A stretch of DNA of 33,449 bases from an uncultured Bacteroidales bacterium (GTDB lineage: Bacteria; Bacteroidota; Bacteroidia; Bacteroidales; UBA4417), in NCBI GenBank assembly GCA_903864265.1, contig CAIPFN010000123.1, forward strand, positions 1-33,449, read 5' to 3'. The notes under the pieces are model-generated. The model saw only the letters and a list, made by a program, of their open reading frames with translations. It made no database searches and was not told the origin of the DNA. Position 1 is the stretch's first letter. The number at the start of each line of letters is the position of its first letter. A program made the translations under genes and the position numbers. Positions 15,848-31,271 of the stretch are shown here, one piece after another.

Positions 15848-17569
15848 TTATTTGTATGCTATTACCACATCTCCGGCTTTTACTTTTATCCCTTCGGCTT
15901 TCAGGTGCGTTCCGGCGGGAAGAACCACCACCAGCGCAGCCTCACCCGGAGGCAATTTGATGCTTACGTTCCCGGTGCTTCCCTGGGCCAGGTATTTTTT
16001 CGAAACAATGTCAAATAAATCCACACTGTTCCCGGCTGTATAGGTAACGGTTTTAGCCTCCGTATAAGGGTTATAGTACAGGTAAACGGGGTATTTGTTG
16101 TCGGCATAAAAGTCGGTGGCATTGCAGTCGAGGGCCAGTATGCCGTCAACATCCGTGGTGTGAACAATTGCTCCGAATACGCCGACTATAGAGGTGCTGT
16201 ACAGGCTGAACATGCTTTCCTTAGGCTGACCCTTCACCCATTTAGGGCCGTCGCCCGTTGAAACGGGTGACATTCCTTTCAGTACGGGTTTGTTATAATC
16301 GTCAATTTTTCTTACACCTTCATAGCCTATGATTCCGTGGGTGAGATCTTTCAGTTCCGGAAGCCACTGGTGGGCGGCGTCCGCCTGGTCGGGATAAAAC
16401 AGCCGGGATGCGTTAACCACGTTAAGCATATATTTGCCTATGATTTTGGCATACTGAGGTTCGTATTTCACCATGGGTACCAGGGGCCAGGCCATAGCCA
16501 CCGAATTCATAAAGAATCCGTAACCACCGCCGTCGGTAATACTTCCCTGCAGGCCTGAAACATCGTAGTCGCCCCATTTTTCGGCAATCACGCCCCAGCC
16601 GTAGCGGCCGTCCTTGGCCTGACAGCCATCGAAGGTCCAGTTCAGCAGCTTGGTAACATCGTATTTGGTGCCCTGTTCAGCATTGAGACGGGCAGCGGTA
16701 TAAGCCCCGAAAGGGAGCAGGATTTCATAAAAACGGCTTTCCTTCTCGTTCAGCAAAGCCTCGGTAGCCGTTTTGGCCCTTCGGAGGTAACGTTCGTCGC
16801 CGAATTTGTGATAAGCCGAATACAATACCCATGCATGGCCGCCGGCGGCATCCTGTTGCATGGGAACATTATTGACCATTCCCTTCATGCGGGCATAGTC
16901 GAAATAGGAATAGTTGTAGTTGCCATTCAGCACCGAATCGGCTTTGTAGAACTGGTCGGCAATGGAACGCTGAATAAATTCGGTGTTTTCAACTTTGGGA
17001 TAAAGAGCAGCTACCCCGTAGTATAACACATTCGGATACACATCGTACCACCAGTCGCGGCCGTAGCCCCCGCCGGCCATTGCCACGGCAGGGTTGGTGT
17101 TGTTCATGATGATATTCCACTTAGTGGTGCTGTTAAAATAGTTTTGAGCCATTTTAACAAAGTTATAGCCATTCTGGCATGTCTTGTCAATGCCCATCAA
17201 CCCGGCACTCAGCAGCGAATTCAGGGAGGTAAGCGCCTCGTGGAACTCGCCCTTGTTTTTAGAGGGTCCCTGGCGAACGTCGCCTATGACAGTATAAAGC
17301 CCGAAAGTCACCTGGTCGATGTTTCGCCTGGAACTGTCGTGCCATATCAGAGGACCAAAGGAAGCCTGAGTGTCGAAATCAAAAACCAGGCTGTCGAACT
17401 GCATGGTTTTTTTCTTCCAGTCGATAATTTTCAGGGGCTGTGGAAGTGCCGGCATCTGATCAACCCTGGCCAGGGAAGTCTGGGCTACAGGCATACCTGT
17501 TTGGGGATTGCAGGAATAAACTCCTGCAAGCAGCACCAGAACGAGTACTAGTATTGTTGCCTTTTTCAT
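15848..17569 (-). CDS. Lipoprotein of unrecognised putative glycosidase family (paralogue of T9SS-secreted protein)
   Basis: The 573-residue product has a lipoprotein-type leader with candidate cysteine C20 (GVYSC). The rest aligns along its length with residues 22-540 of the T9SS protein at 4756-7872: LPQPLKIIDWK (42-52), GIDKTCQNG (126-134), RDWWYDVYPNV (171-181), LLNWTFDG (308-315), VSGLQGSITDGGGYGFF (337-353), VVNASRLFY (384-392) and TDFYADN (485-491). The dense helices and conserved Asp/Trp residues suggest an (alpha/alpha) toroid. I recognise no GH or PL family. Its start overlaps the MFS stop by four bases (ATGA), so translation is probably coupled. Surface or periplasmic anchoring next to SusC suggests it acts on glycan at or just inside the outer membrane. 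Confidence 0.75.
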   Translation of the reverse strand: MKKATILVLVLVLLAGVYSCNPQTGMPVAQTSLARVDQMPALPQPLKIIDWKKKTMQFDSLVFDFDTQASFGPLIWHDSSRRNIDQVTFGLYTVIGDVRQGPSKNKGEFHEALTSLNSLLSAGLMGIDKTCQNGYNFVKMAQNYFNSTTKWNIIMNNTNPAVAMAGGGYGRDWWYDVYPNVLYYGVAALYPKVENTEFIQRSIADQFYKADSVLNGNYNYSYFDYARMKGMVNNVPMQQDAAGGHAWVLYSAYHKFGDERYLRRAKTATEALLNEKESRFYEILLPFGAYTAARLNAEQGTKYDVTKLLNWTFDGCQAKDGRYGWGVIAEKWGDYDVSGLQGSITDGGGYGFFMNSVAMAWPLVPMVKYEPQYAKIIGKYMLNVVNASRLFYPDQADAAHQWLPELKDLTHGIIGYEGVRKIDDYNKPVLKGMSPVSTGDGPKWVKGQPKESMFSLYSTSIVGVFGAIVHTTDVDGILALDCNATDFYADNKYPVYLYYNPYTEAKTVTYTAGNSVDLFDIVSKKYLAQGSTGNVSIKLPPGEAALVVVLPAGTHLKAEGIKVKAGDVVIAYK

Positions 17570-18819
17570 TTTTCTTCCGAATAAGAATCTTTCATAATAT
17601 TTTTAGCCAGCGGAATGGAAATCACCTGCAGTAAGGCCACAATGATAAGGGAATAGCGCAGTGCAAAGGTTTCGGAAACATAGAAAGCCAGGAAGATAAA
17701 CAAGCCCAGGCCGGTAACCCTGCCGGCGTACAAGCCGAACTCGTGGTTCAGGATATAAGCATATTTGTTGCGGTTTTCGCGTTTCGAAACCACGTCAATT
17801 ACCTTCATCATGATAGGATAATAAGCCAGGTCGTGCAGGGGCTGGAAGAAGACTTTACATAAAACGAAAACCATCACGCCTACCATCGAAAGTTCAATCC
17901 CGTTTACTACCGTTCCTATCACGAAAAGTATGATGCCTACCCCAAAAATCAGGATGCGGTGTTTAGGCTTGGCAAAGCGGCCCAGCATGTATATCAGTAT
18001 GGCTGTCAATCCGCCGCTGATCCCCTGTATGAGTCCCAGGGAGCCTTCTTTCCCTACATATCTCATGATCAGCATAGCCGGGGCGGTGACCAGGAATCCC
18101 TGCACCAGACCTTTTAAGGCTGCCAGTAAAATCTGTTTGTTCCAAAGCCTGTCGAAACGAAAATACAGGAAATCCTTCTGTACCGGGTTCTCGAATTTTC
18201 CCCGGGCCAGAGAGAAACAGGCCAGTATGGTAATCGCGAATACGATGATGGTGACCACGCGATACCCCTTATAGATATTGAAAACGATACCGAAAATCTG
18301 CATCCCGTCGATTGAAGCCAGCAAGGCGCCTATAGCCAGGGGGATGGTGATGTTGGCAATGGTAAAAAAGAAGGATTCGAGGCCGAAGAAATAATTCCGG
18401 TTTTCATCTTTGGTGGTGTTCAGGGCCATCAGGTAACGGTTGGTCCAGAAAAATCCGGATGCGGCACCGATTAAAGTACCCGAAACGATGAGCCCAAAAA
18501 GGGTTATGTCTTTCACGAACATCATCCCAACCATCGACAAGCCGCTCAGCAGTATGCCGAAACTATACAGGTGGGCCACCTTAAAGCTTTTCAGCAAAAA
18601 ACCGTTGGTCAGCGAAGTGATGATGATACCTGTATACATGGCTACCTGGAAGATGGCCACAAAACTGGTATCGGCAAAATACCTCATGATGTAGGCGGCC
18701 ATAAAGATCTCAACCACGGGCAATACCAATGCATACAGCATATTGGTGATCAGCAGCACACGCATATTGTGCGGCATGGAGAGGAAGTAGCGGAATTCGG
18801 TAGTCAGTTTGGCTATCAT
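17566..18819 (-). CDS. MFS sugar transporter
   Basis: The 417-residue protein is hydrophobic throughout, with about twelve predicted membrane helices in two halves. The middle loop (RGKFENPVQKDF, about residues 205-216) separates them as in major facilitator superfamily permeases. No signal peptide or ATP-binding motif is present. It begins 15 bp after the GH130 gene and overlaps the next gene by four bases. This pairing of an inner-membrane permease with a cytoplasmic phosphorylase suggests import of a small oligosaccharide for phosphorolysis. Substrate and direction cannot be read from the sequence. Confidence 0.85.
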   Translation of the reverse strand: MIAKLTTEFRYFLSMPHNMRVLLITNMLYALVLPVVEIFMAAYIMRYFADTSFVAIFQVAMYTGIIITSLTNGFLLKSFKVAHLYSFGILLSGLSMVGMMFVKDITLFGLIVSGTLIGAASGFFWTNRYLMALNTTKDENRNYFFGLESFFFTIANITIPLAIGALLASIDGMQIFGIVFNIYKGYRVVTIIVFAITILACFSLARGKFENPVQKDFLYFRFDRLWNKQILLAALKGLVQGFLVTAPAMLIMRYVGKEGSLGLIQGISGGLTAILIYMLGRFAKPKHRILIFGVGIILFVIGTVVNGIELSMVGVMVFVLCKVFFQPLHDLAYYPIMMKVIDVVSKRENRNKYAYILNHEFGLYAGRVTGLGLFIFLAFYVSETFALRYSLIIVALLQVISIPLAKNIMKDSYSEEK

Positions 18820-18834
18820 TGCGTGGGGAGGTGG

Positions 18835-19878
18835 TTAAATTAAAGTGGAAAGTATTTCGGAAATGGAAAGCCTGGCGCCGCATATCACTTCATCGCTTGC
18901 GCCGTAGTACATGAATATATCATCTCCTTTAATATAATGGCCGTTGGTGAAAACCACGTTGCCGAAAAACCCGGTCTGTTCATAGGTTTCAATCGGTTCC
19001 ATGATGGGCTCTATGCTTCTGGCGAGTACTATAGACGGATCGTTGATATCAAGCAGCAAGGCTCCCAGGCAGTAGCGGTGATCGCTGTTGGCGCCGTGAT
19101 AGATTTCGAGCCAGCCTTTTTCGGTGCGTATGGGTGCGGCACCGGCTCCCACGCGTGCCGAATCCCACATACCGGCACGAACGGTGGCAATACATTTATG
19201 CTTTCCCCAGTGGATCAGGTCGGGCGATTCGGCCAGCCAAATATAGTTCCCGCCCAGTTCGGGACTGCTGGGGCGGTGCAGGGCAAAATACTTACCGTTT
19301 ATCTTTTCGTCGAAGAGAGCGCAATCCTTATTGTGAGGGGGGAAAATCATGCCTTCGCGGCTGAAATTCTTCCAGTCGGTAGTCCTGATAAGGCCAACGC
19401 CCACGCCGAATTCCGAAACCTCGGTAAAGGAAAGACAAAATTCATCCTTCATGCTGGCTACCCGGCAGTCTTCGATGCCAAAAGTTTCAAGTTCACCTTT
19501 CCCGAAAATGGGCGGAAACCCATCGGGCTCATAAAAGGTGACTCCGTCGTCGCTGCAAACGAGCCGCAGATACGAAAGCGTAGTCAGGTAATCTTTTTTC
19601 TTGTAATTAATCACGCGTGGATCCGTGGCATCCAGGTCGGGATCGTTTTTATCGAAACTCAGTATGTCGATGCCACCTTTACTGTTGTATACAGGGAAGC
19701 TTATTTTGCCTTCTATCTGCTTAGGCCTTTCGGCGACACGCAACAGCAGCCACGTTTTTCCTTCAAACTGAAAAACACCCGGGTTCAGCAGGCAAAGTAT
19801 TTCCATACCTTCAATACCGGGTTTCAGATCGGCCGGACGAAGGAGTGGATTTTGAGGGAAACGTTTCGCGATATCCAT
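18835..19878 (-). CDS. GH130 family mannoside phosphorylase-type enzyme
   Basis: The 347-residue protein lacks a signal peptide, so it is cytoplasmic. It has the five-bladed beta-propeller motifs of GH130: LLLRVAERP (44-52), TDPRV (85-89), GIEDCR (134-139) with the catalytic Asp D137, KDCALFDEKINGKYFALHRP (184-203), GMWDSARVGAGAAPI (236-250) and YYGASDE (324-330). Conserved R47, R139, K184 and H201/R202 fit the phosphate-binding type, so it is more likely a phosphorylase than a hydrolase. Family members release mannose-1-phosphate from beta-mannosides such as mannosyl-glucose or beta-1,2/1,4-mannobiose; the linkage here is not decidable. It is the first gene of the PUL and has a minus-strand promoter-like element just upstream. 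Confidence 0.9.
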   Translation of the reverse strand: MDIAKRFPQNPLLRPADLKPGIEGMEILCLLNPGVFQFEGKTWLLLRVAERPKQIEGKISFPVYNSKGGIDILSFDKNDPDLDATDPRVINYKKKDYLTTLSYLRLVCSDDGVTFYEPDGFPPIFGKGELETFGIEDCRVASMKDEFCLSFTEVSEFGVGVGLIRTTDWKNFSREGMIFPPHNKDCALFDEKINGKYFALHRPSSPELGGNYIWLAESPDLIHWGKHKCIATVRAGMWDSARVGAGAAPIRTEKGWLEIYHGANSDHRYCLGALLLDINDPSIVLARSIEPIMEPIETYEQTGFFGNVVFTNGHYIKGDDIFMYYGASDEVICGARLSISEILSTLI

Positions 19879-20403: not shown

Positions 20404-21939
20404 ATGCGATCCATCAACCTTCATATTAAACATATTCTGCTGGCCATACCGCTGTCATTTTGCCTGTTCAGTACATGCCAGCCGAACACCAACCCCAACG
20501 TAACCATGAAAGCGCCCGATACCATACAAAACCGTCAACCGGCTGTGGCAGGACAGTTTTATCCTGCCGACCCTCTCGAAATACAGCGAATGCTGAAAGG
20601 TTTTTTTGCAAAGGCCCCTGCCCGGCCAACCGACCTTGATGTGCTGGCCATCATTTCGCCCCATGCAGGCTATGTGTTTTCAGGTGAAGTGGCTGCTGCT
20701 GCCTTTAACCAGGTGGATCCTGCCAGGGTATACAAAACCATTTTTGTGCTGGGTTGCAGTCACCGGAATTCATTTCCGGGAGCTTCCGTTTACAGTATAG
20801 GAAATTACATTACGCCCTTCGGAATGGTGAACACAGACCTGGAAGTAGCCCGGAAACTGGTGGCCGAAAACAAGGTTTTATCTTTCGATCCTCAATACCA
20901 GGAGTCGGAGCATAGCATTGAGGTTCAGATTCCTTTTCTGCAGTATCACCTGGAACAGGAGTTTAAAATTGTCCCGATTTTGCTGGGAACCCAGGATCCC
21001 GTCGTTTGCGAAAAGATTGCCAAAGCGCTAAAGCCCTATTTTTCGCCCGAAAACCTGTTTGTCATCAGCACCGATTTCTCTCATTACCCTGCCTATAAGG
21101 ACGCCTTTACTGCCGACCAGCACATTGCCGATGCCATAGTGACCAACAACCCCGAAAAATTGCTCACGGCTGTTGAATCCTGCAGCCGTCAAAAAGTGGA
21201 GAACCTGGTTACCGGATGCTGCTCCTGGCCTTCGGTGCTCACGCTCATGTATCTCACCGAACAAATGCCCGGTATAACTTACAGGCAGATTCTGTATAAA
21301 AATTCAGGGGATACATACTACGGCGATAAGACTCGAGTGGTTGGATATTACGCCCTGAGCGTACTGCAGCAAAAGCAAAACACCCTCATGATGACTGACG
21401 CCGATAAAAGCGAGCTGCTGCTGTTGGCGCGCAACACCATTTATACCCATCTGCATGAAGGCGTGATTCCTCCGGTAGATACAGCCACACTTTCGGCTAC
21501 GCTTCTCAGTAAGGCCGGCGCATTTGTAACCCTCAAGCGGGCTGGTGATCTCCGCGGTTGCATAGGACACTTCGAAGCCGATAAACCCTTGTATAAAATC
21601 GTACAGCAAATGGCCGTAGCATCCGCAACCCAGGATTATCGTTTCGACGCTGTTACCCTTGCTGAGCTGGTGTCCGTTGATATTGAAATTTCGGTGCTGA
21701 CCCCTATGCATAAAATCAACAATGTAAAAAACATCAGGCTTGGCACCGACGGCATTTATATTAAAAAAGGAAGCAGGAGCGGGACTTTCTTACCCCAGGT
21801 GGCCAGCGAAACCAAATGGGACCTGGAAGAATTCCTGGGTCACTGCTCCCGCGACAAAGCCGGGATTGGATGGGATGGATGGAAAGACAAGGATGCTGAA
21901 ATATATGTTTACCAGGCGTTTGTGTTTGGCGAGAAGTGA
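20404..21939 (+). CDS. MEMO + AMMECR1 fusion protein with lipoprotein-like leader (AmmeMemoRadiSam B/A)
   Basis: I chose the ATG at 20404 over an upstream TTG; the product is then 511 residues. A hydrophobic leader ends in FSTC (C25), a possible lipobox. Residues ~44-322 are a MEMO domain: SPHAGYVFSG (H87), GCSH (H120), ESEHSIEVQIPFLQ (H170), STDFSHY (D224, H227) and GCCSW (C272), matching the His/Asp/Cys cavity of human MEMO1. Residues ~335-505 are an AMMECR1 domain with its signature LRGCIG (383-388). The two domains often occur as separate genes or as this fusion beside a radical SAM enzyme. Their biochemical role is not established. What stands out is the leader, which predicts export. 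The next two genes, on the same strand, complete the cluster. Confidence 0.93.
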   Translation: MRSINLHIKHILLAIPLSFCLFSTCQPNTNPNVTMKAPDTIQNRQPAVAGQFYPADPLEIQRMLKGFFAKAPARPTDLDVLAIISPHAGYVFSGEVAAAAFNQVDPARVYKTIFVLGCSHRNSFPGASVYSIGNYITPFGMVNTDLEVARKLVAENKVLSFDPQYQESEHSIEVQIPFLQYHLEQEFKIVPILLGTQDPVVCEKIAKALKPYFSPENLFVISTDFSHYPAYKDAFTADQHIADAIVTNNPEKLLTAVESCSRQKVENLVTGCCSWPSVLTLMYLTEQMPGITYRQILYKNSGDTYYGDKTRVVGYYALSVLQQKQNTLMMTDADKSELLLLARNTIYTHLHEGVIPPVDTATLSATLLSKAGAFVTLKRAGDLRGCIGHFEADKPLYKIVQQMAVASATQDYRFDAVTLAELVSVDIEISVLTPMHKINNVKNIRLGTDGIYIKKGSRSGTFLPQVASETKWDLEEFLGHCSRDKAGIGWDGWKDKDAEIYVYQAFVFGEK

Positions 21940-22116
21940 GAGGACTGAAGGGCAGAAGTGGTGAAGTTGAAAAGGGCTACGCGTTATTTTATCCCGAAGA
22001 CTTGAGGCAACCTGCCTCTATGCTGCATTCAGTGCCCCGATGACATGGCAGGTGCTTTTTACGCTTTTACCGTTTTTAAAAACCCGCTGAACGCAACATC
22101 CGTACACAGTAGTTTA

Positions 22117-22124
22117 TACTTTTG
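22117..22124 (+). promoter_or_regulatory. Candidate -7 element just upstream of the spermidine-synthase-like gene
   Basis: TACTTTTG fits TAnnTTTG and ends 9 bp before the ATG at 22134, so a transcript from it would be nearly leaderless. A short hairpin (GAGGCA/TGCCTC, 22004-22018) without a T tract lies in the same gap. The gene may have its own promoter as well as read-through from the MEMO/AMMECR1 gene. Confidence 0.3.
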
Positions 22125-22133
22125 TCCATCATA

Positions 22134-24704
22134 ATGCCGGATACGCCGTATTCCATTGTTACTATCAGCATACTGTGCCTGGTATTTTATGGCATATCCC
22201 TGGCTTTAATCAGGCCGGGCATCATAACTGCCGGAGGGCAGCGGAAATTCTGGAACACCTTGCTCCTGTTTTCGTTTTTTATAGCCGGGGGCATAGGCTT
22301 ATTTCTAGCCATTGCGGTCAACTTCAAAATCAATCTTCCTTTCGCCGGCAGCCTGCTGGTTTGGCATGTCGATTTTGGAACAGCCCTTGCCCTGATGGCC
22401 GTATTTCATTTTTCGTGGCATATAAAGTATTACCTCTCCCTTTTTAAACCCGGAAGCAAGTCAATGAATGATGTTCCGGGCTCCGGTCCGGTTTTTTCGC
22501 TGCCGCAGCACAAAGCCGGGTTTAACCTGCTGATCCTCCCTTTCAGCCTGGGGTTTACCAGTATGGCCACCCAGCTGATCCTGCTTCGTGAGTTGTTATC
22601 GGTATTTAACGGCAACGAATGGATTATCGGCATTGTATTGGCCAACTGGATGGGGCTCACCGGCCTGGGTGCACTGGCGAACCGAAACAAAAGCGGGCGG
22701 CTTGGGCTGAAAGGAATTATGACAGGTTTGTACCTGCTGGCAATTATCCCGGGCTTTACACTCTTTCTGCTCGACTGGATAAGAAATATTATACTTCCCA
22801 CGGGAAGCTATCCTACGAGCTGGCAAATTTTAAGCGGAACCAGCCTGCTGTTGATGCCCTTCTGCCTCATGTCGGGCTGGCTTTTCGGGGCGGTAAGCCT
22901 GAACCTGTCGCATGGGCCGGCTAAAAATGCAGTGAGCCTCGTGTATGGATGGGAAACCGCGGGAAGCATTACTGCCGGGATACTTTGCAGCCTGGTACTG
23001 GTATTCTTTTTCGAGCCCTTTCAAAGTATGTCCGTTGTCCTTATGATTAACAGCATACTTTTGTTTTTCGGCAGCAGGAATAAGATTTTCCCGCTCCGGA
23101 AAAAAATCAGCCTGTATGTGCTCCTGGCTTCCGGTATAACACTGGCCGTATTGGTCTCAAAGCTGGATAGGACCGCCCTGCAGTTTCTTTTTCCCGGGCA
23201 GGAAATCGTCACTTTCAAAGATACGCCTTACGGGAAACTGGCAGTGACTGAACAGGCTGGGCAACTCAATTTTTTTGAAGATAACACGCTGCTTTTTACC
23301 ACCAATAACATCACCCTGAACGAAGAAACCGTTCATTATACCCTGTTACAACGACCCTTGAGGGGGAACCTGCTGCTGCTGGGCGGAAGCATTTCGGGGG
23401 TGGCTGACGAATGTTTAAAATACCCCCTTAAAAGGCTCGATTGCTTTGAGATCAACCCTGCTATACCGGCAATGGGTAAAGTCTTTCATCGCTTGCCTAC
23501 GGATACGCGCTTTAAAATGCATACCGGGGATGCACGGCTGCTTTTAAAGCAGGATATGGTTGGAAAGACCATGCCGCATTTACAGGGACAGTCTCAGGCT
23601 GGGGAGACTGTTGCAGTGAATTATGATGCCGTAATCCTGGACCTGCCTCTGCCGGCTACCCTCCGGTTGAACCGGTTTTATACACTCGAATTTTTCGGTT
23701 TGCTGAAACGGCTGTTGCTGCCGGGGGGAATTCTTTCGCTGAGTCTTACGTCAACGGCTGATTACATGGGAAGTGATGCCTTAGCGGTTCAATCCACCAT
23801 GTACCAGACGCTCAGGGCTGAGTTTAACAATATACTGGTGATACCGGGCGGAAAAAATTATTTTCTTGCTTCCGACGGACCGCTTACAAGCGCGGTTTCG
23901 AAGCTTGCAGCAGCCAGAGGGATTGAAACGGCCTATGTGAATGAGTATTACCTGGATGATGTATCGTTGCTGGAACGTTCGGGCGAAGTGATGAAACGCA
24001 TTTCAGCCGATGCTCCGCTGAACCGCGATTTTAAACCGGTGGGCTGTTTCAGGCAACTTAAATACTGGCTCAGTTATCCGGGTAATGCCGGGTCCTACCT
24101 GCTGGCCCTGCCGGTGATCGTCCTTTTGCTGCTTGGCGGCATACGCTCCGGGGCAAGTACGGTGGCCCTGTTTACGGCCGGGCTAAGTTCATTTTCAATC
24201 GAAATCATTTTGTTGCTGAGCTACCAGGTTGTGTATGGATATATCTATGTGGCAACAGGAATTTTTATCACCTTCTTTATGGCAGGAATCGCCCTGGGGG
24301 TGCTGCTTTCACGCCGCTATTCCGGGAAACTCACCTTTATCACCTTAATATACCTGCAGTTGGCTTTACTGAGCATCATTTTTCTCAGCCTGGCTGTTTT
24401 GTACTCCTTCAGTCATTTCATGGTTTCGACGGCACTGATGCATATACAGTGCGGTATGCTGATCCTTTGTACGGCTGCAGTTACCGGGGCACTGTTTCAT
24501 GTGGCATCGTACCTGAAAACCGGAACTATACAAGAGGTGGCATCGGCTAACTATTCGGCCGACCTGTTTGGCTCAGCCCTGGGAGCGGCACTGGTAAACG
24601 TATGGATTATCCCGGTTTGGGGGCTGGTGAACTCCCTCTGGGTTGTGGCCGGGTTTAACGCCTTGGCCTTGATTATAATGACGGTAAAAAAGAAGCGCGG
24701 GTAG
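22134..24704 (+). CDS. Polytopic membrane protein with inserted spermidine-synthase-like domain
   Basis: I chose the ATG at 22134 over a TTG at 22122, giving 856 residues. The first ~105 residues hold three helices with H78, H92 and H96 (HVDFG, FHFSWH), a layout reminiscent of small cytochrome b domains. Next comes a membrane block (about 125-345), a soluble Rossmann domain (about 350-640), then more helices (about 645-850). The Rossmann part keeps LLLLGGSISGVADE, the acidic FEINP and YTLEFF as in spermidine synthases. However, GGGDGG has become GGSISG, and the second catalytic Asp of the DxxD motif is missing (LDLPLP). The membrane halves share a YxxDxxGSxxG-like motif (YGWETAGSITAG; YSADLFGSALGAAL). 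Aminopropyl transfer is therefore doubtful. It lies between the MEMO/AMMECR1 and radical SAM genes. Confidence 0.8.
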   Translation: MPDTPYSIVTISILCLVFYGISLALIRPGIITAGGQRKFWNTLLLFSFFIAGGIGLFLAIAVNFKINLPFAGSLLVWHVDFGTALALMAVFHFSWHIKYYLSLFKPGSKSMNDVPGSGPVFSLPQHKAGFNLLILPFSLGFTSMATQLILLRELLSVFNGNEWIIGIVLANWMGLTGLGALANRNKSGRLGLKGIMTGLYLLAIIPGFTLFLLDWIRNIILPTGSYPTSWQILSGTSLLLMPFCLMSGWLFGAVSLNLSHGPAKNAVSLVYGWETAGSITAGILCSLVLVFFFEPFQSMSVVLMINSILLFFGSRNKIFPLRKKISLYVLLASGITLAVLVSKLDRTALQFLFPGQEIVTFKDTPYGKLAVTEQAGQLNFFEDNTLLFTTNNITLNEETVHYTLLQRPLRGNLLLLGGSISGVADECLKYPLKRLDCFEINPAIPAMGKVFHRLPTDTRFKMHTGDARLLLKQDMVGKTMPHLQGQSQAGETVAVNYDAVILDLPLPATLRLNRFYTLEFFGLLKRLLLPGGILSLSLTSTADYMGSDALAVQSTMYQTLRAEFNNILVIPGGKNYFLASDGPLTSAVSKLAAARGIETAYVNEYYLDDVSLLERSGEVMKRISADAPLNRDFKPVGCFRQLKYWLSYPGNAGSYLLALPVIVLLLLGGIRSGASTVALFTAGLSSFSIEIILLLSYQVVYGYIYVATGIFITFFMAGIALGVLLSRRYSGKLTFITLIYLQLALLSIIFLSLAVLYSFSHFMVSTALMHIQCGMLILCTAAVTGALFHVASYLKTGTIQEVASANYSADLFGSALGAALVNVWIIPVWGLVNSLWVVAGFNALALIIMTVKKKRG

Positions 24705-24747
24705 GGATTTTTAAAGCCCGATCAGGGAAAAACGCTGTCATGTTTTG

Positions 24748-24755
24748 TATTTTTG
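24748..24755 (+). promoter_or_regulatory. Candidate -7 element upstream of the radical SAM gene
   Basis: TATTTTTG fits TAnnTTTG and lies 24 bp before the ATG at 24780, inside the 75-bp gap after the membrane-protein gene. It might give the radical SAM gene a separate transcript. Confidence 0.3.
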
Positions 24756-24779
24756 CAAGCTGTTTCATGCTCGTTGGCG

Positions 24780-25913
24780 ATGAAAAGACGCACATTCATC
24801 CTTTCCGGTTTGGCGACGGCAGCCTGCCTGCTCTGTCGCGATGAAATGCTGCTGGCCGGAATTGACATATTTCACGGCATGGCTCCTGCGGACCCGCTCT
24901 GGAAATGGAGCCGCGAAGCATACCATTACAAATTGACTCCGCGCGGTATCGAATGCACCAACTGCCCGAACCAATGCACGCTCAGGCGCATGGAAACCAG
25001 CAAATGCCGTAACCGCATCAACGTCAGGGATAAGTTGTATTCCATCGCCTATGGTAATCCCTGCGCAGTGCATATCGATCCTATTGAGAAGAAGCCGTTT
25101 TTCCACTTTCTTCCATCCACAACTGCTTTCTCCATAGCAACGGCGGGGTGTAATTTTGCTTGTCTGAATTGCCAGAACTGGGAAATCTCGCAGAAAAGTC
25201 CAAAAGAAACCTCCAATGCCGACCTAATGCCAGCCGCCGTGGTGGAAGCCTGTCAGCAAAACAAATGCGAAAGCATCGCCTACACCTACTCCGAACCCAC
25301 GGTGTTTTATGAATACGTCTACGATACCGCCCGCCTCGCCCGTGAAAAGGGGATTAAAAACATTTACAAATCGAATGGTTATATTAACGAACAGCCCCTC
25401 AGGATGCTGTGCAAAGTGATCGATGCCGCCAATGTCGATCTGAAAGGCTTCTCGGAGGCAACCTACCTGAAGCTGAATGCAGGCAAACTGGCTCCTGTTC
25501 TACGTTCCCTACAGGTACTGAAGGAGGAAGGTGTATGGCTCGAAATCACCAACCTGGTTATTCCCTCGTGGACTGACGACCTGAAAACCATACGCGACAT
25601 GAGTAAATGGCTGGTGGCCAATAAAATGGAGGATTGCCCCCTGCATTTCAGCCGGTTTTCACCCTTATACAAGTTAATCCAGCTGCCGGCCACACCCCTG
25701 TTAACCTTGCAGCAGGCACGCGAAGCCGCCCTGGATGCCGGAATGAAATACGTGTATGTGGGGAACTTGCCCGGTTCGGAGCTCGAAAATACGAATTGTC
25801 CGAAATGCCTGAAAACGGTAGTGGAACGTAAAGGCTTCAGGGTAACCCAAAACCATATTAAAGGCGGGAAATGTATGTACTGCGGGGAAAAGATTCCGGG
25901 AGTCTGGACCTGA
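24780..25913 (+). CDS. amrS: AmmeMemoRadiSam radical SAM enzyme with twin-arginine leader
   Basis: An upstream TTG (24753) is in frame, but the ATG at 24780 gives 377 residues starting MKRRTFILSGLATAACLLC, which has a twin-arginine motif (RRTFIL) and a hydrophobic stretch. The radical SAM motif CNFACLNC (C124, C128, C131) binds the 4Fe-4S cluster. An N-terminal cysteine set, C59, C62, C66 and C76 (CTNCPNQC...C), and a C-terminal set, C340/C343 and C365/C368 (CPKC, CMYCGEKIPGVW), match this family. The latter looks like a zinc- or iron-binding ribbon. Family members occur with MEMO and AMMECR1 proteins, and the reaction is not known. Tat export would carry a folded metalloprotein across the membrane, but a non-cleaved anchor is the alternative. 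Confidence 0.92.
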   Translation: MKRRTFILSGLATAACLLCRDEMLLAGIDIFHGMAPADPLWKWSREAYHYKLTPRGIECTNCPNQCTLRRMETSKCRNRINVRDKLYSIAYGNPCAVHIDPIEKKPFFHFLPSTTAFSIATAGCNFACLNCQNWEISQKSPKETSNADLMPAAVVEACQQNKCESIAYTYSEPTVFYEYVYDTARLAREKGIKNIYKSNGYINEQPLRMLCKVIDAANVDLKGFSEATYLKLNAGKLAPVLRSLQVLKEEGVWLEITNLVIPSWTDDLKTIRDMSKWLVANKMEDCPLHFSRFSPLYKLIQLPATPLLTLQQAREAALDAGMKYVYVGNLPGSELENTNCPKCLKTVVERKGFRVTQNHIKGGKCMYCGEKIPGVWT

Positions 25914-26061: not shown

Positions 26062-26976
26062 ATGCAAACCATTTTAGGATCAGGCGGTATCATTGCCAAT
26101 CATCTCGCCAAATCATTACCCGTTTATACCAACAGCATCAGGCTGGTAAGCCGCAACCCGAAAGCAGTATCAGGCAAGGAAGAACTTATGTCGGCTGATC
26201 TTACTTCGGCCGGGGAGGTCAGCAAGGCGGTAAAAGGTTCGGAAGTAGTGTACCTCACGGCCGGACTGCAGTACGATTTAAAAACCTGGCAGGAAAAATG
26301 GCCGCTGGTAATGCAAAATGTGATCCGTGCCTGTGAGGAATACGGCGCCCGGCTGGTATTTTTTGACAATGTATATATGTATGGGAAAGTAGTGGGCCCC
26401 ATGACCGAAGCCAGCCCGTTTAACCCCTGCAGCCGTAAAGGAGAGGTGAGGGCTAAAATTGCGCGAATGTTACTGGATGAAGTCAGCAAAGGCACCTTAA
26501 CGGCACTTATTGCCCGGGCCGCAGATTTTTATGGCCCCGATACCATGAACAGTTTTCTCAATATGATGGTTTTCGAAAACATGAAGAAAGGGAAAAGCGC
26601 CCAGCTCATGATCAACAAAAACCTCAGGCACTCCTTTACCTATACCCCCGATGCAGGCAAAGCTACTGCCCTGCTTGGAAATACGCCTTCCGCCTTTAAC
26701 CAGACCTGGCACCTGCCAACGGATAAAAATGCCCTCACCGGACAGCAGATAGTTGAAATTGCGGCTCAGGCCCTCAACATCAAGCCTAAGGTGATGGTTC
26801 TGCCCAGGCTGATGATTCAAATGGCAGGGATTTTCAATCCAATCATTAAAGAAAGTGTGGAAATGTTGTATCAGTACGATTCTGAATACCTTTTTGATTC
26901 AGGAAAATTCGACAAGGCATTTACTTTCATAAAAACACTTTACGCTGAGGGCATCGGCAATTCAGTGAGAACCTAG
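26062..26976 (+). CDS. SDR-family NAD(P)-dependent epimerase/reductase
   Basis: The 304-residue cytoplasmic protein has an extended/atypical short-chain dehydrogenase fold. A glycine-rich start (GSGGIIANHLA, residues 6-16) replaces the usual GxxGxxG and is followed by VSRNP. YMYGK, about residues 110-114, is the probable Tyr-x3-Lys pair, after LVFFDN. RAADFYGP is typical of the family. The substrate is unknown. The start is the ATG at 26062; the gene lies 148 bp after the radical SAM gene and ends in front of a shared terminator. There is no sign that it belongs to the AmmeMemoRadiSam cluster beyond orientation. Confidence 0.85.
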   Translation: MQTILGSGGIIANHLAKSLPVYTNSIRLVSRNPKAVSGKEELMSADLTSAGEVSKAVKGSEVVYLTAGLQYDLKTWQEKWPLVMQNVIRACEEYGARLVFFDNVYMYGKVVGPMTEASPFNPCSRKGEVRAKIARMLLDEVSKGTLTALIARAADFYGPDTMNSFLNMMVFENMKKGKSAQLMINKNLRHSFTYTPDAGKATALLGNTPSAFNQTWHLPTDKNALTGQQIVEIAAQALNIKPKVMVLPRLMIQMAGIFNPIIKESVEMLYQYDSEYLFDSGKFDKAFTFIKTLYAEGIGNSVRT

Positions 26977-27022
26977 CTGAATTCGCAGGGCAGAGTGTAA
27001 ATATGAACAGTGATATTTTCAA

Positions 27023-27054
27023 AAAAAAAGCACCTTCCGAAAGGTGCTTTTTTT
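27023..27054. terminator. Bidirectional terminator between convergent SDR and threonine dehydrogenase genes
   Basis: AGCACCTT (27029-27036) and AAGGTGCT (27041-27048) form a stem with loop CCGA. Seven A's precede it and seven T's follow, so on either strand the hairpin runs into a U tract. It lies between the two convergent stop codons and would stop transcription from both sides. Confidence 0.92.
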
Positions 27055-27075
27055 ATTCAGGAAGTCAATAATTCT

Positions 27076-28038
27076 TTATATCAGCACTTTGTCCTTTTTC
27101 TCATAGATGGCGCGGAGCATATCTGTAGTCATTTTCTCCAGGTTCCAGTTCGGTTTCCATCCCCATTCGCTTCGGGCACAGGTATCGTCCATGCTGTTCG
27201 GCCACGAATTGGCAATTGCCTGTTTGATGGGTTCAACATTATAATCCAGTACGAACTCGGGTATATGTTTTTTTATCTCGTTTGCAATCATTTCAGGGTC
27301 GAAGCTCATGGCCGTGACATTAAATGAATTGCGGTGAACCAGTTTGGACGGATCGGCTTCCATCAGGTTAACGGCGGCTTCCAGGGCATCGGGCATATAC
27401 ATCATGTCGAGGAAAGTCCCCGCACTCAGCGGACTCGTATACCGGCCATGCTTAACGGCTTCATAAAAAATTTCAACGGCGTAATCCGTGGTTCCTCCCC
27501 CGGGCATGGTTACATTGGAGATAATCCCCGGAAAGCGGACCGAACGGGTATCGACACCGAACTTTTTGAAATAATAATCGCTTAATAATTCCCCGGTTAC
27601 CTTGGTAATCCCGTACATGGTCTGGGGGCGCTGGATGGTATCCTGAGGAGTATGATCGTGCGGGGTGTTGGGCCCGAAAGAGCCGATAGAACTGGGGGTG
27701 AACAGGGCGCATTTGTATTCGCGGGCTACCTCCAGGCAATTCATCAGTCCGCCAACGCCGATCTGCCAGGCCATCAACGGCTTGGTTTCGCCCACAGCCG
27801 AAAGGATGGCTGCCAGGTTATAGATGGTATCAATCTTATATTTCTTAACCAGGTCGGCTACTTCCTGGGCTTCAGTAACATCCACGTATTCGGCTGGTCC
27901 TGAGTGGAGCAGTTCACCTGAGGGTTCCGGACGGAAGTAACCGGCAACCACACTGCTGTTTCCATAAATTTTCCGGAGTTTCATAGTAAGCTCCGAACCT
28001 ATCTGGCCTACCGCTCCTATGACGAGTATATTCTTCAT
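27076..28038 (-). CDS. L-threonine 3-dehydrogenase, SDR type
   Basis: The ATG at 28038 gives 320 residues; an in-frame TTG lies just upstream. GAVGQIGSEL (8-17) binds NAD, and Y142/K146 (MYGITKVTGE) form the catalytic pair with the SS of TPSSIGSFGP. The blocks RFPGIISN and the SFDP-containing C-terminal region match the epimerase-like threonine dehydrogenases, not the zinc-dependent MDR type. The enzyme oxidises L-threonine to 2-amino-3-ketobutyrate. The divergent neighbour at 28447 encodes the ligase that cleaves this product with CoA to glycine and acetyl-CoA, which supports the call. A minus-strand TAATTTTG element lies at 28090-28083. Confidence 0.93.
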   Translation of the reverse strand: MKNILVIGAVGQIGSELTMKLRKIYGNSSVVAGYFRPEPSGELLHSGPAEYVDVTEAQEVADLVKKYKIDTIYNLAAILSAVGETKPLMAWQIGVGGLMNCLEVAREYKCALFTPSSIGSFGPNTPHDHTPQDTIQRPQTMYGITKVTGELLSDYYFKKFGVDTRSVRFPGIISNVTMPGGGTTDYAVEIFYEAVKHGRYTSPLSAGTFLDMMYMPDALEAAVNLMEADPSKLVHRNSFNVTAMSFDPEMIANEIKKHIPEFVLDYNVEPIKQAIANSWPNSMDDTCARSEWGWKPNWNLEKMTTDMLRAIYEKKDKVLI

Positions 28039-28082
28039 GTGCAAATTTCAATTGTATTGTTAAACGATTCACAAAAGTGCGG

Positions 28083-28090
28083 CAAAATTA
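28083..28090 (-). promoter_or_regulatory. Candidate -7 element for threonine dehydrogenase
   Basis: The minus strand reads TAATTTTG, fitting TAnnTTTG, 44 bp upstream of the ATG. The 408-bp divergent gap (28039-28446) otherwise holds a CGGTTAACCG palindrome (28251-28260), the plus-strand element at 28274 and no visible gene. Confidence 0.4.
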
Positions 28091-28273
28091 AACAAATTTG
28101 CTTACCTCAGCCGTTATTTAACCTTATCCTGAAAATAAATTTAATTAATTGATGTTCTGTGATTTAGAATTGCAATCCTGCCGCCTTTCGCGCAAGGGAA
28201 TGGGCGGTTGTGCCCCTGGTTCAATTAAGTATAACATTTTCAAGTTCATCCGGTTAACCGTTCCAATAATTTT

Positions 28274-28281
28274 TACCTTTG
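28274..28281 (+). promoter_or_regulatory. Candidate -7 element for glycine C-acetyltransferase
   Basis: TACCTTTG fits TAnnTTTG and lies 13 bp after the perfect palindrome CGGTTAACCG (28251-28260), a possible operator in the -33 region. The leader to the ATG at 28447 would be about 160 bases. Confidence 0.4.
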
Positions 28282-28446
28282 CGGCCTGATTAAAATGCTT
28301 TTACAGCCATCGGGAGTGTATTTTTAAATGAAATGATTCCAAATAGTTCAGGATTTCAGATTTCAAAATATAAATAGCTTCACCCGGAATCTTTACAGTG
28401 GTTTAATCAAACCCCCGCATAACAGAATCTAAACAATCACGATACC

Positions 28447-29679
28447 ATGTACACCAAATTTCAGGAACACCTCAGTAAAGAGCTTGCCGGGATCAAGGAA
28501 GCCGGATTATTTAAAAACGAACGTATCCTTGTTTCGCCCCAGGGGGCCGAAATTACGATCAGTTCCGGCGCTAAAGTGCTTAACTTCTGCGCCAATAACT
28601 ACCTGGGACTTTCCAACAGCCCTCAGTTGATAGCAGCAGCCAAGGAAGCGCTCGATACCCATGGTTACGGCATGTCGTCGGTTCGTTTTATTTGCGGTAC
28701 CGGCGATCTGCATAAAGAACTGGAAAAGAAAATTGCTGACTTTTTTGGTATGGAAGATACCATTCTTTATGCCGCATGCTTCGATGCCAATGGCGGTGTT
28801 TTCGAACCCTTGCTGGGTGAAGAAGATGCCATTATCAGCGACTCACTGAACCATGCCTCCATTATTGATGGCGTTCGCCTTTGTAAAGCGGTACGTTACC
28901 GGTACAATAATGCCGATATGGCCGACCTTGAAGTGCAGTTGCAGGCAGCCCAGGCGCAAAAGCACCGCCTGATTGTTACCGACGGTGTTTTTTCGATGGA
29001 TGGCAATGTAGCCCCACTCGACAAGATATACGAACTGGCGAATAAGTACAATGCCATGATTATGGTTGACGAATCGCACTCGGCAGGCGTAGTGGGCCAG
29101 ACTGGCCGGGGTGTTACCGAGCAGTTCGACCTGAAAGGTAAGATTGAAATCATTACAGGTACTTTAGGAAAAGCCTTCGGCGGAGCCATTGGCGGATTCA
29201 CCACGGGTAAAAAGGAAATTATTGATATGCTGCGTCAGCGTTCGCGTCCATATCTTTTCAGCAACTCTATACCTCCAATGGTAGCTGCTGCCGGTATCCG
29301 CATGGTGGATATGATGAGCGAAACCAATGAATTACAGGACAAACTTCACGATAATACGGCCTATTTTGTTAAAAATATGCTGGCTGCCGGCTTCGATATC
29401 AAGCCTACCCAAAGCGCCATTTGTGCCGTGATGCTGTACGATGCCAAGCTCAGCCAGGAAATGGCGGCCAAACTGCTCGATGAAGGCATTTATGTGATTG
29501 GTTTCTTTTTCCCGGTTGTGCCTAAGGACAAAGCCCGCATCCGTGTGCAGATTTCAGCCGCCCACGAACGCGAACATCTCGATAAATGCATTGCCGCCTT
29601 TACCAAGGTTGGAAAAGAACTGGGGGTCATTAAAGGACAGGATAGCGGTTGTGGCTGCGGCTGCAGTTGTGGAAACTAA
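28447..29679 (+). CDS. kbl: Glycine C-acetyltransferase (2-amino-3-ketobutyrate CoA ligase) with Cys-rich tail
   Basis: The 410-residue protein is a PLP-dependent alpha-oxoamine synthase. The PLP lysine is K242 (TGTLGKAFGG), H136 lies in SLNHASI, and D208/H211 in VDESHSAG bind the cofactor. It joins or splits glycine and acetyl-CoA to and from 2-amino-3-ketobutyrate, the second step of threonine breakdown, matching the divergent threonine dehydrogenase. The core ends near LGVIKG, as usual for the family at about 395 residues. It then runs on into GCGCGCSCGN (401-410) with four cysteines in alternate positions, an unusual metal-binding-like tail. A strong terminator follows 20 bp after the stop. 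Confidence 0.94.
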   Translation: MYTKFQEHLSKELAGIKEAGLFKNERILVSPQGAEITISSGAKVLNFCANNYLGLSNSPQLIAAAKEALDTHGYGMSSVRFICGTGDLHKELEKKIADFFGMEDTILYAACFDANGGVFEPLLGEEDAIISDSLNHASIIDGVRLCKAVRYRYNNADMADLEVQLQAAQAQKHRLIVTDGVFSMDGNVAPLDKIYELANKYNAMIMVDESHSAGVVGQTGRGVTEQFDLKGKIEIITGTLGKAFGGAIGGFTTGKKEIIDMLRQRSRPYLFSNSIPPMVAAAGIRMVDMMSETNELQDKLHDNTAYFVKNMLAAGFDIKPTQSAICAVMLYDAKLSQEMAAKLLDEGIYVIGFFFPVVPKDKARIRVQISAAHEREHLDKCIAAFTKVGKELGVIKGQDSGCGCGCSCGN

Positions 29680-29698
29680 ACACTGCCCCGATTATAAT

Positions 29699-29730
29699 AA
29701 AAAAGGCTGCCGTCAGGGTGGCCTTTTTTT
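29699..29730 (+). terminator. Rho-independent terminator after kbl
   Basis: The arms 29699-29711 and 29717-29729 pair over 13 positions (two G-U wobbles) around the loop GTCAG. The right arm ends in a run of seven T's. It closes the kbl transcript. Confidence 0.9.
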
Positions 29731-29807
29731 GTTTCCCGCCAAAGCCCGCTCGAAAAGAACCGGCCGATAAGGCTTCTTTGAAATATCTGCATAAAGCCGG
29801 CATTATT

Positions 29808-29815
29808 TATTTTTG
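29808..29815 (+). promoter_or_regulatory. Candidate -7 element for the metallo-hydrolase
   Basis: TATTTTTG fits TAnnTTTG, 55 bp upstream of the ATG at 29871 and downstream of the kbl terminator, so a new transcript probably begins here. Confidence 0.45.
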
Positions 29816-29870
29816 GTGAATCTATATAAAGTACATTTGATGACTTCAAAAAATTAAAACAATCAGGGAT

Positions 29871-31271
29871 ATGAAAATTAAATTTATTGGCGCGGCCCGC
29901 GAGGTAACGGGAAGTAAACATCTCATCACCACCGAAAACGGGAAAAGAATATTACTCGACTGCGGAATGTTCCAGGGCAAAGGCCTGGAAACCGATGGCA
30001 TGAACCGGAACCTGATGTTCGATCCGGCTAAAATCGACCATGTTATACTCACCCATGCACATATTGACCACTCGGGACTGATCCCGTATATTTACAAACT
30101 TGGATTCCGGGGCTCGGTAATTTGTACCAGCGCCACCCGCGATCTTTGCGCCATTATGCTGGCCGACAGCGGGCACATACAGGAGGGTGACGTGAAATGG
30201 TTTAACAAACGCCGTATTCAGAAAGGGCTGGCCCCGGTTGACCCTATTTACACCGAGGTGGATGCACGGGCCTGTATGGAATTGTTTATCACGGTGGCTT
30301 ACGGCCGCAAGTTTAATATTGATGCCAACACCAGGGTGAAATTTACCAACACCGGTCATATGCTGGGAAGCGGAACGGCTCTGCTCGAGATCAGCGAGAA
30401 TGGAAAAACCACCCGAATTGCCTATACCGGCGACATCGGAAGGCCGGCAAGCCGTATTTTAAGAGCGCCGGAGCCATTCCCTCAATGCGACTACCTGATT
30501 ACGGAAGCAACCTATGGCAACCGGCTTCATCCGCACCTGCAGGAGGCTGAAGGGGAACTTTTAAGGGTGATACGCGAAACCTGCGTTGAAAAAGGCGGCA
30601 AAGTAATCATTCCTTCATTTGCCATAGGCCGCACCCAGGAAGTGGTGTATGCACTCAATAATTTTTTCAACCAGGGGTTGTTGCCCAAAGTGAATATTTA
30701 TGTCGACAGCCCGCTGGCGGTAAATGCTACCGATATATTCAGGCTTCACACCGATATACTGAATGCGGATGTGGCGCATGTAATGCTCACCGATCCTGAT
30801 CCCTTTGGCTTTAATTCGCTGTATTACATCAAAAGCCCGGATGAATCGAAGAAGCTGAATTCCAACAATAGGCCCTGTGTCATCATTTCGGCTTCGGGTA
30901 TGATGGAAGCCGGGCGGATCAAACATCACCTGGCCAATAATATTGAGAATCCTAAAAATACCATACTTGCCGTTGGATATTGCTCACCCCGTACGCTGGG
31001 TGCACGAATACTGGATGGCGCCGACGAAGTTTCAATTTTTGGGGTTCGCCATCCGGTGAAAGCAAAGGTCGAAAGGATTGAGGCTTTCAGCGGACATGGC
31101 GATTCGGTTGAAATGGCCGATTTCCTGGCTTGCCAGGATACGTCAAAGGTTAAAAAAGTTTTCCTGGTGCATGGCGAATACGAAGCTCAGCTGGCCTATA
31201 AAAACACCCTCGAAAAAAGAGGTTTCTCCCATATTGAAATACCGGTTGCAGGCGAAGAAACGGAATTGTAG
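29871..31271 (+). CDS. MBL-fold beta-CASP metallo-hydrolase (RNA-processing type)
   Basis: The 466-residue cytoplasmic protein has the metal-binding THAHIDHSG (61-69), followed by GHMLGSG and YTGDIGR of the metallo-beta-lactamase fold. A beta-CASP insert covers the middle (VIIPSFAIGRTQEV, VYVDSPLAVNATDIF-like region, VIISASGMMEAGRIKHHL). The C-terminal RMMBL-type domain holds EAFSGHGD, where the usual histidine-aspartate motif FSGHAD has G for A. This is the architecture of bacterial CPSF73/Ysh1-like nucleases, so RNA cleavage is likely but not proven. It appears to be transcribed alone. Confidence 0.9.
   Translation: MKIKFIGAAREVTGSKHLITTENGKRILLDCGMFQGKGLETDGMNRNLMFDPAKIDHVILTHAHIDHSGLIPYIYKLGFRGSVICTSATRDLCAIMLADSGHIQEGDVKWFNKRRIQKGLAPVDPIYTEVDARACMELFITVAYGRKFNIDANTRVKFTNTGHMLGSGTALLEISENGKTTRIAYTGDIGRPASRILRAPEPFPQCDYLITEATYGNRLHPHLQEAEGELLRVIRETCVEKGGKVIIPSFAIGRTQEVVYALNNFFNQGLLPKVNIYVDSPLAVNATDIFRLHTDILNADVAHVMLTDPDPFGFNSLYYIKSPDESKKLNSNNRPCVIISASGMMEAGRIKHHLANNIENPKNTILAVGYCSPRTLGARILDGADEVSIFGVRHPVKAKVERIEAFSGHGDSVEMADFLACQDTSKVKKVFLVHGEYEAQLAYKNTLEKRGFSHIEIPVAGEETEL

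Follow-up and report, generated by a model that had tools for sequence, protein, structure and literature searches.

A putative extracytoplasmic variant of the AmmeMemoRadiSam system in Bacteroidota, with a Tat-type leader on the radical SAM enzyme and a conserved MFS-like membrane partner

The window, a stretch of 33,449 nucleotides from an uncultured Bacteroidales bacterium, encodes at positions 20404-25913 a MEMO-AMMECR1 fusion, a polytopic membrane protein and a radical SAM enzyme, in this order and all on the + strand. MEMO, AMMECR1 and radical SAM proteins co-occur as a named system, AmmeMemoRadiSam (TIGR04335/TIGR04336/TIGR04337; amrA, amrB, amrS). The initial annotation had recognized three consecutive genes on one strand, and matches to Pfam and NCBIfam bear this out: the three AmmeMemoRadiSam families lie close together here, all above their curated cut-offs (228 bits against a cut-off of 26 for TIGR04336, 168 against 99 for TIGR04335, and 340 against 220 for TIGR04337). 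The locus nevertheless differs from the known system in that MEMO and AMMECR1 are fused behind a predicted Sec/lipoprotein leader, the radical SAM enzyme carries a predicted Tat leader, and a dedicated membrane protein is placed between the two. The canonical AmmeMemoRadiSam proteins found in some of the same genomes (L064, L066) are separate and leaderless.

The first gene (20404..21939, + strand) joins AmmeMemoRadiSam proteins B and A in a single chain (Pfam Memo, E = 6e-56; AMMECR1, E = 9e-51). Its MEMO domain spans 20536..21354 (+ strand) and its AMMECR1 domain 21424..21927 (+ strand; PF01871, residues 341-508). Human MEMO1 coordinates its metal with H49, H81 and C244 (PMC11081632). In a pairwise alignment, His87 and His120 of the MEMO domain pair with H49 and H81, and Cys273, which is invariant among the relatives and lies beyond the span of that alignment, probably matches C244. 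The chain opens with a predicted Sec signal of the lipoprotein type (residues 1-24, 20404..20475, + strand), MRSINLHIKHILLAIPLSFCLFST, followed by Cys25. The leader, MRSINLHIKHILLAIPLSFCLFSTC, which runs on into QPNT, is lipoprotein-like with T at -1, making the lipobox, LFSTC, non-canonical. The lipobox cysteine is kept in the same-genus orthologues L191-L195 (FFSNC, FFSNC, FFTQC, LSSAC and VSSAC, the last two being a good fit to a lipobox), and MEMO-AMMECR1 is probably a lipoprotein in this genus. The leaders of the MEMO proteins at L002, L004 and L069 are devoid of this cysteine and end in AQ or SQ, resembling SPI sites. A hydrophobic Sec-type leader, mostly with a Kyte-Doolittle (KD) hydropathy of 2.3-3.4, is found on every complete MEMO-AMMECR1 fusion adjoining the membrane gene, and in a held-out set from the order of the window leaders are present on all 28 of 28 MEMO proteins.

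The radical SAM enzyme (24780..25913, + strand; ATG at 24780) is assigned by TIGR04337, and carries the cluster motif C124-x3-C128-x2-C131 (25149..25172, + strand), which is invariant in alignments A2, A5 and A8. About residues 1-27 (24780..24860, + strand) form a twin-arginine, Tat-type leader, MKRRTFILSGLATAACLLC, which contains an S/T-R-R-x-F-L-K-like motif and a moderately hydrophobic h-region. Leaders were assessed by motif, hydropathy, charge and conservation. The combination of x[KR]R.F and a hydrophobic stretch is found in 38/38 complete radical SAM proteins encoded beside the membrane gene and in 0/61 encoded elsewhere, paralogues from the same genomes included (Fisher p = 3e-28, which is descriptive only, as the rows are related). 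In the 38 proteins this stretch is weakly hydrophobic (mean KD 1.45), which is Tat-like. In a held-out test within the order of the window, with the prediction fixed beforehand, the leader was present in 32/34 proteins and at 29/29 loci. The leader-bearing enzymes, that of the window among them, cluster together in a quick tree, and leaderless second copies exist in the same genomes (L064, L066, L070, L073, L075). TatC is present in the genome of the window and in 27/27 near-complete genomes. In an AlphaFold2 model of the enzyme (pLDDT 72), a leader helix of residues 3-18 precedes a barrel-like core.

Both leaders had been proposed in the initial annotation, and both kinds are retained in L191-L195, contrary to its refuting condition that close orthologues would lack them. 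In these orthologues the leader of the radical SAM enzyme begins right after the ATG, with in-frame stops shortly upstream. The starts are thus not mis-called, ruling out a start-codon artefact. Synonymous changes are furthermore found within the leader between close pairs, one misaligned row of that comparison being left aside.

The second gene (22134..24704, + strand; ATG at 22134) encodes a polytopic membrane protein, which models as an MFS fold with a spermidine-synthase-like domain inserted between its halves, behind an N-terminal histidine module (AlphaFold2, mean pLDDT 74). The N half (residues 128-352, 22515..23189, + strand) and the C half (residues 654-855, 24093..24698, + strand; delimited by the model and structural alignment) each have seven helices. 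Together, the membrane part resembles POT/MFS transporters such as PepTSo (4uvm; VIA-align, Z 24.6 over 367 residues), from which it differs by the soluble domain between the halves and an identity of only 12%; it also aligns to SV2A (Z 25.3). The inserted domain (residues 357-622, 23202..23999, + strand) aligns to SpeE (1uir, Z 26.4, rmsd 3.1 over 278), and Pfam Spermine_synth matches at 25.6 bits, slightly above its cut-off. As an aminopropyltransferase the domain is degenerate: the window has GGSISG at the GGGDG site and DLPLP at the D-x-P-D-P site, with loss of the second acid. The GGGDG aspartate is missing from 39/39 relatives and, in nearly all of them, so is the first aspartate of D-x-P-D-P, whereas the catalytic acids are intact in 24 membrane spermidine synthases of the same class. 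An active polyamine synthase is rejected on these residues; the nucleoside-binding positions are conserved. Positive charges are divided 23 to 7 in the protein of the window, with four of the seven flanking the inserted domain, and 17.4 to 9.2 in the 39 relatives, by which the positive-inside rule predicts the domain to lie outside the membrane. Membrane spermidine synthases that keep their catalytic residues follow this pattern too (10.4 to 4.0), so the outer placement is not specific to this set. These synthases, annotated as “fused MFS/spermidine synthase” (PRK03612, NF037959), likewise have seven helices ahead of an aminopropyltransferase-fold domain, but the proteins described here have a second, seven-helix MFS half behind it, have lost the catalytic acids, are linked to an exported radical SAM enzyme and in some cases carry the additional histidine module. 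The protein of the window falls below the cut-offs of both PRK03612 and NF037959; L068 passes the latter.

The N-terminal module (22134..22439, + strand) consists of three helices with the pattern H78-x3-G82-x9-H92-x3-H96. This H-x3-G-x9-H-x3-H spacing is shared with DUF4405 and prokaryotic cytochrome b561, but the profile matches of the module, with E-values of at best 0.012 for DUF4405 and 0.004 for Ni_hydr_CYTB, do not reach the cut-offs. Sub-threshold DUF4405 matches recur in 6/8 further members, mostly across the whole profile, and a search of the module against PDB sequences gave no match. The earlier lead of SAM binding and redox histidines in one protein is only half borne out: the nucleoside-binding positions and the three histidines (H78 19/19, H92 19/19, H96 18/19) are conserved, but the module is borne by about a third of the relatives in the order of the window and is absent from most homologues, and its resemblance to DUF4405 stays sub-threshold. 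The DUF4405-bearing 910-aa ORFs of the genus, considered as paralogues of the membrane gene, do not match its profile.

The arrangement is repeated in >80 genomes from several classes of Bacteroidota, in agreement with the expectation of a conserved gene order and of a membrane gene kept beside MEMO-AMMECR1 and the radical SAM gene. The link between the membrane gene and the leader-bearing enzyme holds at about 65 loci, and also when the two are unlinked: in G773 and G765 a leader-bearing radical SAM enzyme is still encoded elsewhere in the genome. The plasmid matches looked at were leaderless or unannotated. Based on these patterns, the locus probably represents an extracytoplasmic variant of AmmeMemoRadiSam, with the exported radical SAM enzyme and its membrane partner as the core. 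A narrower reading, that these two proteins alone are the functional unit and that MEMO-AMMECR1 serves a separate function, being linked and often but not always co-exported, appears rather unlikely but draws on several loci. The pair occurs without MEMO at L155, L157-L161, L270 and L276, with leaderless MEMO and AMMECR1 encoded elsewhere in the case of L155 and L157-L161. At L156, the same kind of membrane protein is found next to a Tat-leadered enzyme of another radical SAM family (P0001, PflX-like). Conversely, Segatella L197, L062 of G139 and several genomes of the same genus encode a signal peptide on the MEMO-AMMECR1 fusion, whereas their radical SAM enzyme is leaderless and the membrane gene is missing. 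These MEMO-less loci and exported MEMO proteins with unexported enzymes indicate that a common compartment for all three parts is not required. Against a two-part unit stand the three-gene set, which is the commonest arrangement, the co-occurrence of its families as a named system, and G804 (L218, same genus), in which MEMO, AMMECR1 and radical SAM domains form a single ORF behind one Sec-like leader.

As to where the extracytoplasmic variant proposed here would work, the initial annotation offered two options, outside the membrane or anchored by the leaders at its inner face. Four independent signals point to the outside, which we consider very likely, with the proviso that the parts are not always exported together. 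First, Tat consensus positions are conserved among the 38 leaders (F in 36, K/R at +6 in 25), and positive charge is found only ahead of the hydrophobic stretch (net +2.7, as against -0.24 behind it), which would orient the enzyme outwards. Second, the partner MEMO-AMMECR1 proteins have Sec leaders, either SPI with a +1 Q or with a lipobox. Third, the topology of the membrane protein places the spermidine-synthase-like domain outside. Fourth, some radical SAM relatives (L063, L065, L147, L150, L151) have a CXXCH motif between leader and core, and heme-lyase genes in their genomes; the enzyme of the window has no CXXCH in this position. The alternative, in which the leaders serve to anchor the proteins in the membrane with their catalytic domains facing the cytoplasm, near SAM and low-potential electrons, could draw on the replacement of RR by KR in 23/38 leaders, the lack of clear AxA cleavage sites, and the short h-region. 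Radical SAM chemistry is, moreover, otherwise known from the cytoplasm. An anchored arrangement is still improbable, as it runs counter to each of the four signals and gives the consensus F and K/R no role. A reading of the membrane protein as a common membrane-bound polyamine synthase that is no more than a neighbor accords with its aminopropyltransferase fold and PRK03612-like N half but is extremely improbable given the loss of catalytic acids and the association with leader-bearing enzymes, even when unlinked.

An extracytoplasmic location suggests a division of labor in which the iron-sulfur cluster of the radical SAM enzyme would be inserted in the cytoplasm, the folded enzyme exported via Tat to act at the outer face of the inner membrane, and MEMO-AMMECR1 exported via Sec. 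A point against this scheme is that no periplasmic SAM is known to us. The membrane protein, as the obligatory partner of the exported enzyme, may unite a carrier of the MFS type with a degenerate, outward-lying aminopropyltransferase domain, and the two could handle SAM-derived nucleosides, either by moving SAM outward or by taking up 5'-deoxyadenosine. This role is put forward tentatively. Electrons might arrive via the histidine module in the protein of the window, or via c-type heme in the CXXCH-bearing relatives, and the MEMO metal site might act on the radical SAM product. The combined scheme, in which an MFS-type carrier that binds SAM/nucleosides with its outer domain serves a Tat-exported enzyme, and heme in a membrane module or an attached heme of the c type supplies the electrons, is correspondingly speculative.

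We know of no radical SAM enzyme that works outside the cytoplasm, and an extracytoplasmic set would therefore add a new working place for this chemistry. SAM and reducing power would then have to reach the outer side of the inner membrane, for which the conserved membrane partner is an evident candidate. In humans, MEMO1 and AMMECR1 are linked to disease, and their molecular function is not settled. Parts that are separated from cytoplasmic metabolism would narrow the choice of substrate to an envelope lipid, a glycan, a protein or an exported metabolite. Among 5.39 million open papers, AmmeMemoRadiSam receives passing mentions only and the term “periplasmic radical SAM” is not in use; PMC7159879 cites Burroughs et al. 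2019 for Memo-AMMECR1 systems, and that work may mention exported forms. The leaderless paralogues in the same genomes provide a built-in control.

The set consists of three genes on the + strand within window positions 20404-25913. The first encodes a MEMO-AMMECR1 fusion of 511 aa (beginning MRSINLHIKHILLAIPLSFCLFSTC). The second, from an ATG at 22134, encodes a polytopic membrane protein of 856 aa with a spermidine-synthase-like domain, and the third, from an ATG at 24780, a 377-aa AmmeMemoRadiSam radical SAM enzyme (TIGR04337, 340 bits; beginning MKRRTFILSGLATAACLLC). Gaps of 194 and 75 bases separate the membrane gene from the fusion and from the radical SAM gene, respectively. The neighbours on either side (15848-19878 and 26062-31271) look ordinary and include a GH130-type phosphorylase, an MFS transporter, NAD epimerases, a class I/II aminotransferase, an MBL/beta-CASP nuclease, and an unassigned protein that bears a leader and matches C5-epimerase below threshold. 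At a single other locus (L003:11874-13642), the set is adjoined by a Tat-leadered DUF362 protein and a DUF6599 protein.

This three-gene set is no isolated oddity. The identical order of all three genes occurs in 3 metagenome-assembled Bacteroidota contigs, with 36-39% identity of the membrane protein. When 245 genomes from another class of the phylum were searched with a profile of the membrane protein, 35 carried it, and the weaker matches were other spermidine synthases. Of 15 additional genomes from the window's genus, 5 have it too, as do about 46 of 198 from its order. The distribution is nevertheless patchy, as an earlier class-wide sample queried with the single protein returned, besides the window itself, only ordinary spermidine synthases.

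The radical SAM enzymes that adjoin the membrane gene share a Tat-type N-terminal leader. An x[KR]R.F motif followed by a weakly hydrophobic stretch is found in 38 of 38 complete N termini (F replaced once by Y and once by L), with a mean net charge of +2.7 before the hydrophobic stretch and -0.24 after it. Leaders of same-genus orthologues are MNRRIFITTSLASAAC, MNRRTFISTGIVSAAC, MNKRDFIKAGIAGLGC, MDKRVFIKSVFAAAGC and MDKRAFIKSGLATVGC. None of 61 other members of the radical SAM family carries such a leader; several of these 61 share a genome with a leader-bearing copy, and some of those several adjoin separate MEMO and AMMECR1 genes that are also leaderless (loci L064 and L066). The leader was predicted in writing before any of 40 fresh loci from the window's order was read. 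In this held-out set, 32 of 34 complete proteins bore the leader; the two exceptions were each a second copy following one with a leader, and the prediction thus held at 29 of 29 loci. In a protein tree the leader-bearing members cluster, with three long-branched leaderless rows falling inside. Where the membrane gene stands alone, in two genomes, a leader-bearing radical SAM enzyme is found elsewhere in both, and TatC is present in all 27 near-complete carrier genomes and in the window's own. Tandem radical SAM genes, in two or three copies, adjoin the membrane gene at L256, L259, L270 and L276, some with all copies leader-bearing.

The MEMO-AMMECR1 fusion likewise carries a hydrophobic leader, in 28 of 28 complete proteins from the held-out loci. 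These leaders are of the Sec type, more hydrophobic than those of the radical SAM enzymes, and end in a lipobox-like (LSSAC, VSSAC, SSCTAQ) or SPI-like manner with Q after the cleavage site, a pattern typical of Bacteroidota. H87 and H120 of the window's MEMO align directly with H49 and H81 of human MEMO1, where H49, H81 and C244 are metal ligands (PMC11081632). Cys273 is invariant and probably matches human C244; with two aligned ligands and this cysteine, a redox or oxygen-dependent MEMO step acting on the radical SAM product is possible.

An AlphaFold2 model of the membrane protein (mean pLDDT 74) has 3 + 7 helices, a soluble domain (357-622) and 7 more helices. The modelled soluble domain resembles SpeE structures (1uir, Z 26.4), and the membrane part matches the MFS proteins PepTSo (Z 24.6 over 367 residues) and SV2A (Z 25.3). 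Of the loop Lys/Arg in the window's protein, 23 fall on the far side from the soluble domain and 7 on the near side, four of which flank the domain. The family averages are 17.4 vs 9.2; a held-out set, under a segmentation that misses one C-terminal helix, gives 14.6 vs 8.0. Because Lys/Arg are richer in the loops opposite it, the spermidine-synthase-like domain is predicted to lie outside the membrane. Membrane spermidine synthases that retain their catalytic residues (L006-L030) have a charge pattern that likewise puts the enzyme domain outside (10.4 vs 4.0). The domain keeps the glycine-rich loop as well as E439 and D466, which correspond to the ribose-binding Glu and the adenine-proximal Asp of SpeE. 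GGGDG has lost its Asp in every member compared, and the D-x-P-D-P acids are mostly lost or changed. With the catalytic acids largely gone and the loop, E439 and D466 retained, a polyamine synthase appears unlikely and a nucleoside-binding domain plausible.

The first 102 residues of the membrane protein form a three-helix histidine module in which H78 and H92 are conserved in 19 of 19 sequences and H96 in 18 of 19. The spacing of these residues, H-x3-G-x9-H-x3-H, is like that in cytochrome b561 and DUF4405. Among eight further members, six have sub-threshold DUF4405 matches, most of them spanning the full profile. Cytochrome b561 is matched by one member of the family (E 0.004). Heme b in this module is plausible. 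The module is absent from most of the wider family, including the same-genus orthologue L193. ORFs of about 910 aa with an N-terminal DUF4405/cytochrome-b-like part (L186, L188 and L189, of the same genus and order) lie close to Tat-leader genes and ferredoxin-like partners; considered as kin of the membrane gene, they proved unrelated to it. In another branch, the radical SAM enzyme itself has a CXXCH motif between leader and core (L063, L065, L147, L150 and L151; lost in L142), and genomes bearing it contain heme-lyase genes. Attachment of c-type heme happens outside the cytoplasm, and a heme c at this motif, if real, would therefore independently support export. A radical SAM enzyme with heme c would be unusual.

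In the working that we propose, the radical SAM enzyme would fold with its cluster before Tat export, MEMO-AMMECR1 would be exported via Sec, and the membrane carrier would sit between; these export and topology steps have support in the sequence features. We infer that SAM would be supplied, or 5'-deoxyadenosine cleared, by the carrier together with its outer domain, and that heme modules would supply electrons. The three families are themselves known (TIGR04335-7). No description of exported members or of the membrane partner was found in the literature searched, mostly outside subscription journals, and the set could possibly be the first extracytoplasmic radical SAM system.

Loci that depart from the pattern indicate what forms the unit. 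The radical SAM gene is paired with the membrane gene alone at L155 and L157-L161; MEMO-AMMECR1 is encoded in leaderless form elsewhere in these genomes. Conversely, gut Bacteroidales (Segatella hominis, L197; genome G139, L062) and some same-genus genomes have MEMO-AMMECR1 with a signal peptide, a leaderless radical SAM enzyme and no membrane gene. Such pairs without MEMO, and signal-peptide-bearing MEMO-AMMECR1 in company with a leaderless enzyme and no membrane gene, mark the radical SAM enzyme and the membrane protein as the tight unit. The leaderless enzyme, which adjoins the fusion on the S. hominis plasmid/chromid (L197:2408-4825), also lacks the C-terminal part. In the same-genus genome G804 (L218:6285-8798), MEMO, AMMECR1 and radical SAM are joined in one open frame of 838 aa that carries one Sec-like leader; the membrane gene does not adjoin it. 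The frame is either a natural fusion or an assembly error and, provided it is not the latter, argues for joint action of all three. At L156:411-3948, the same kind of membrane protein adjoins a radical SAM enzyme of a different, PflX-like family, which also has a twin-arginine leader (VTRRYFLEST).
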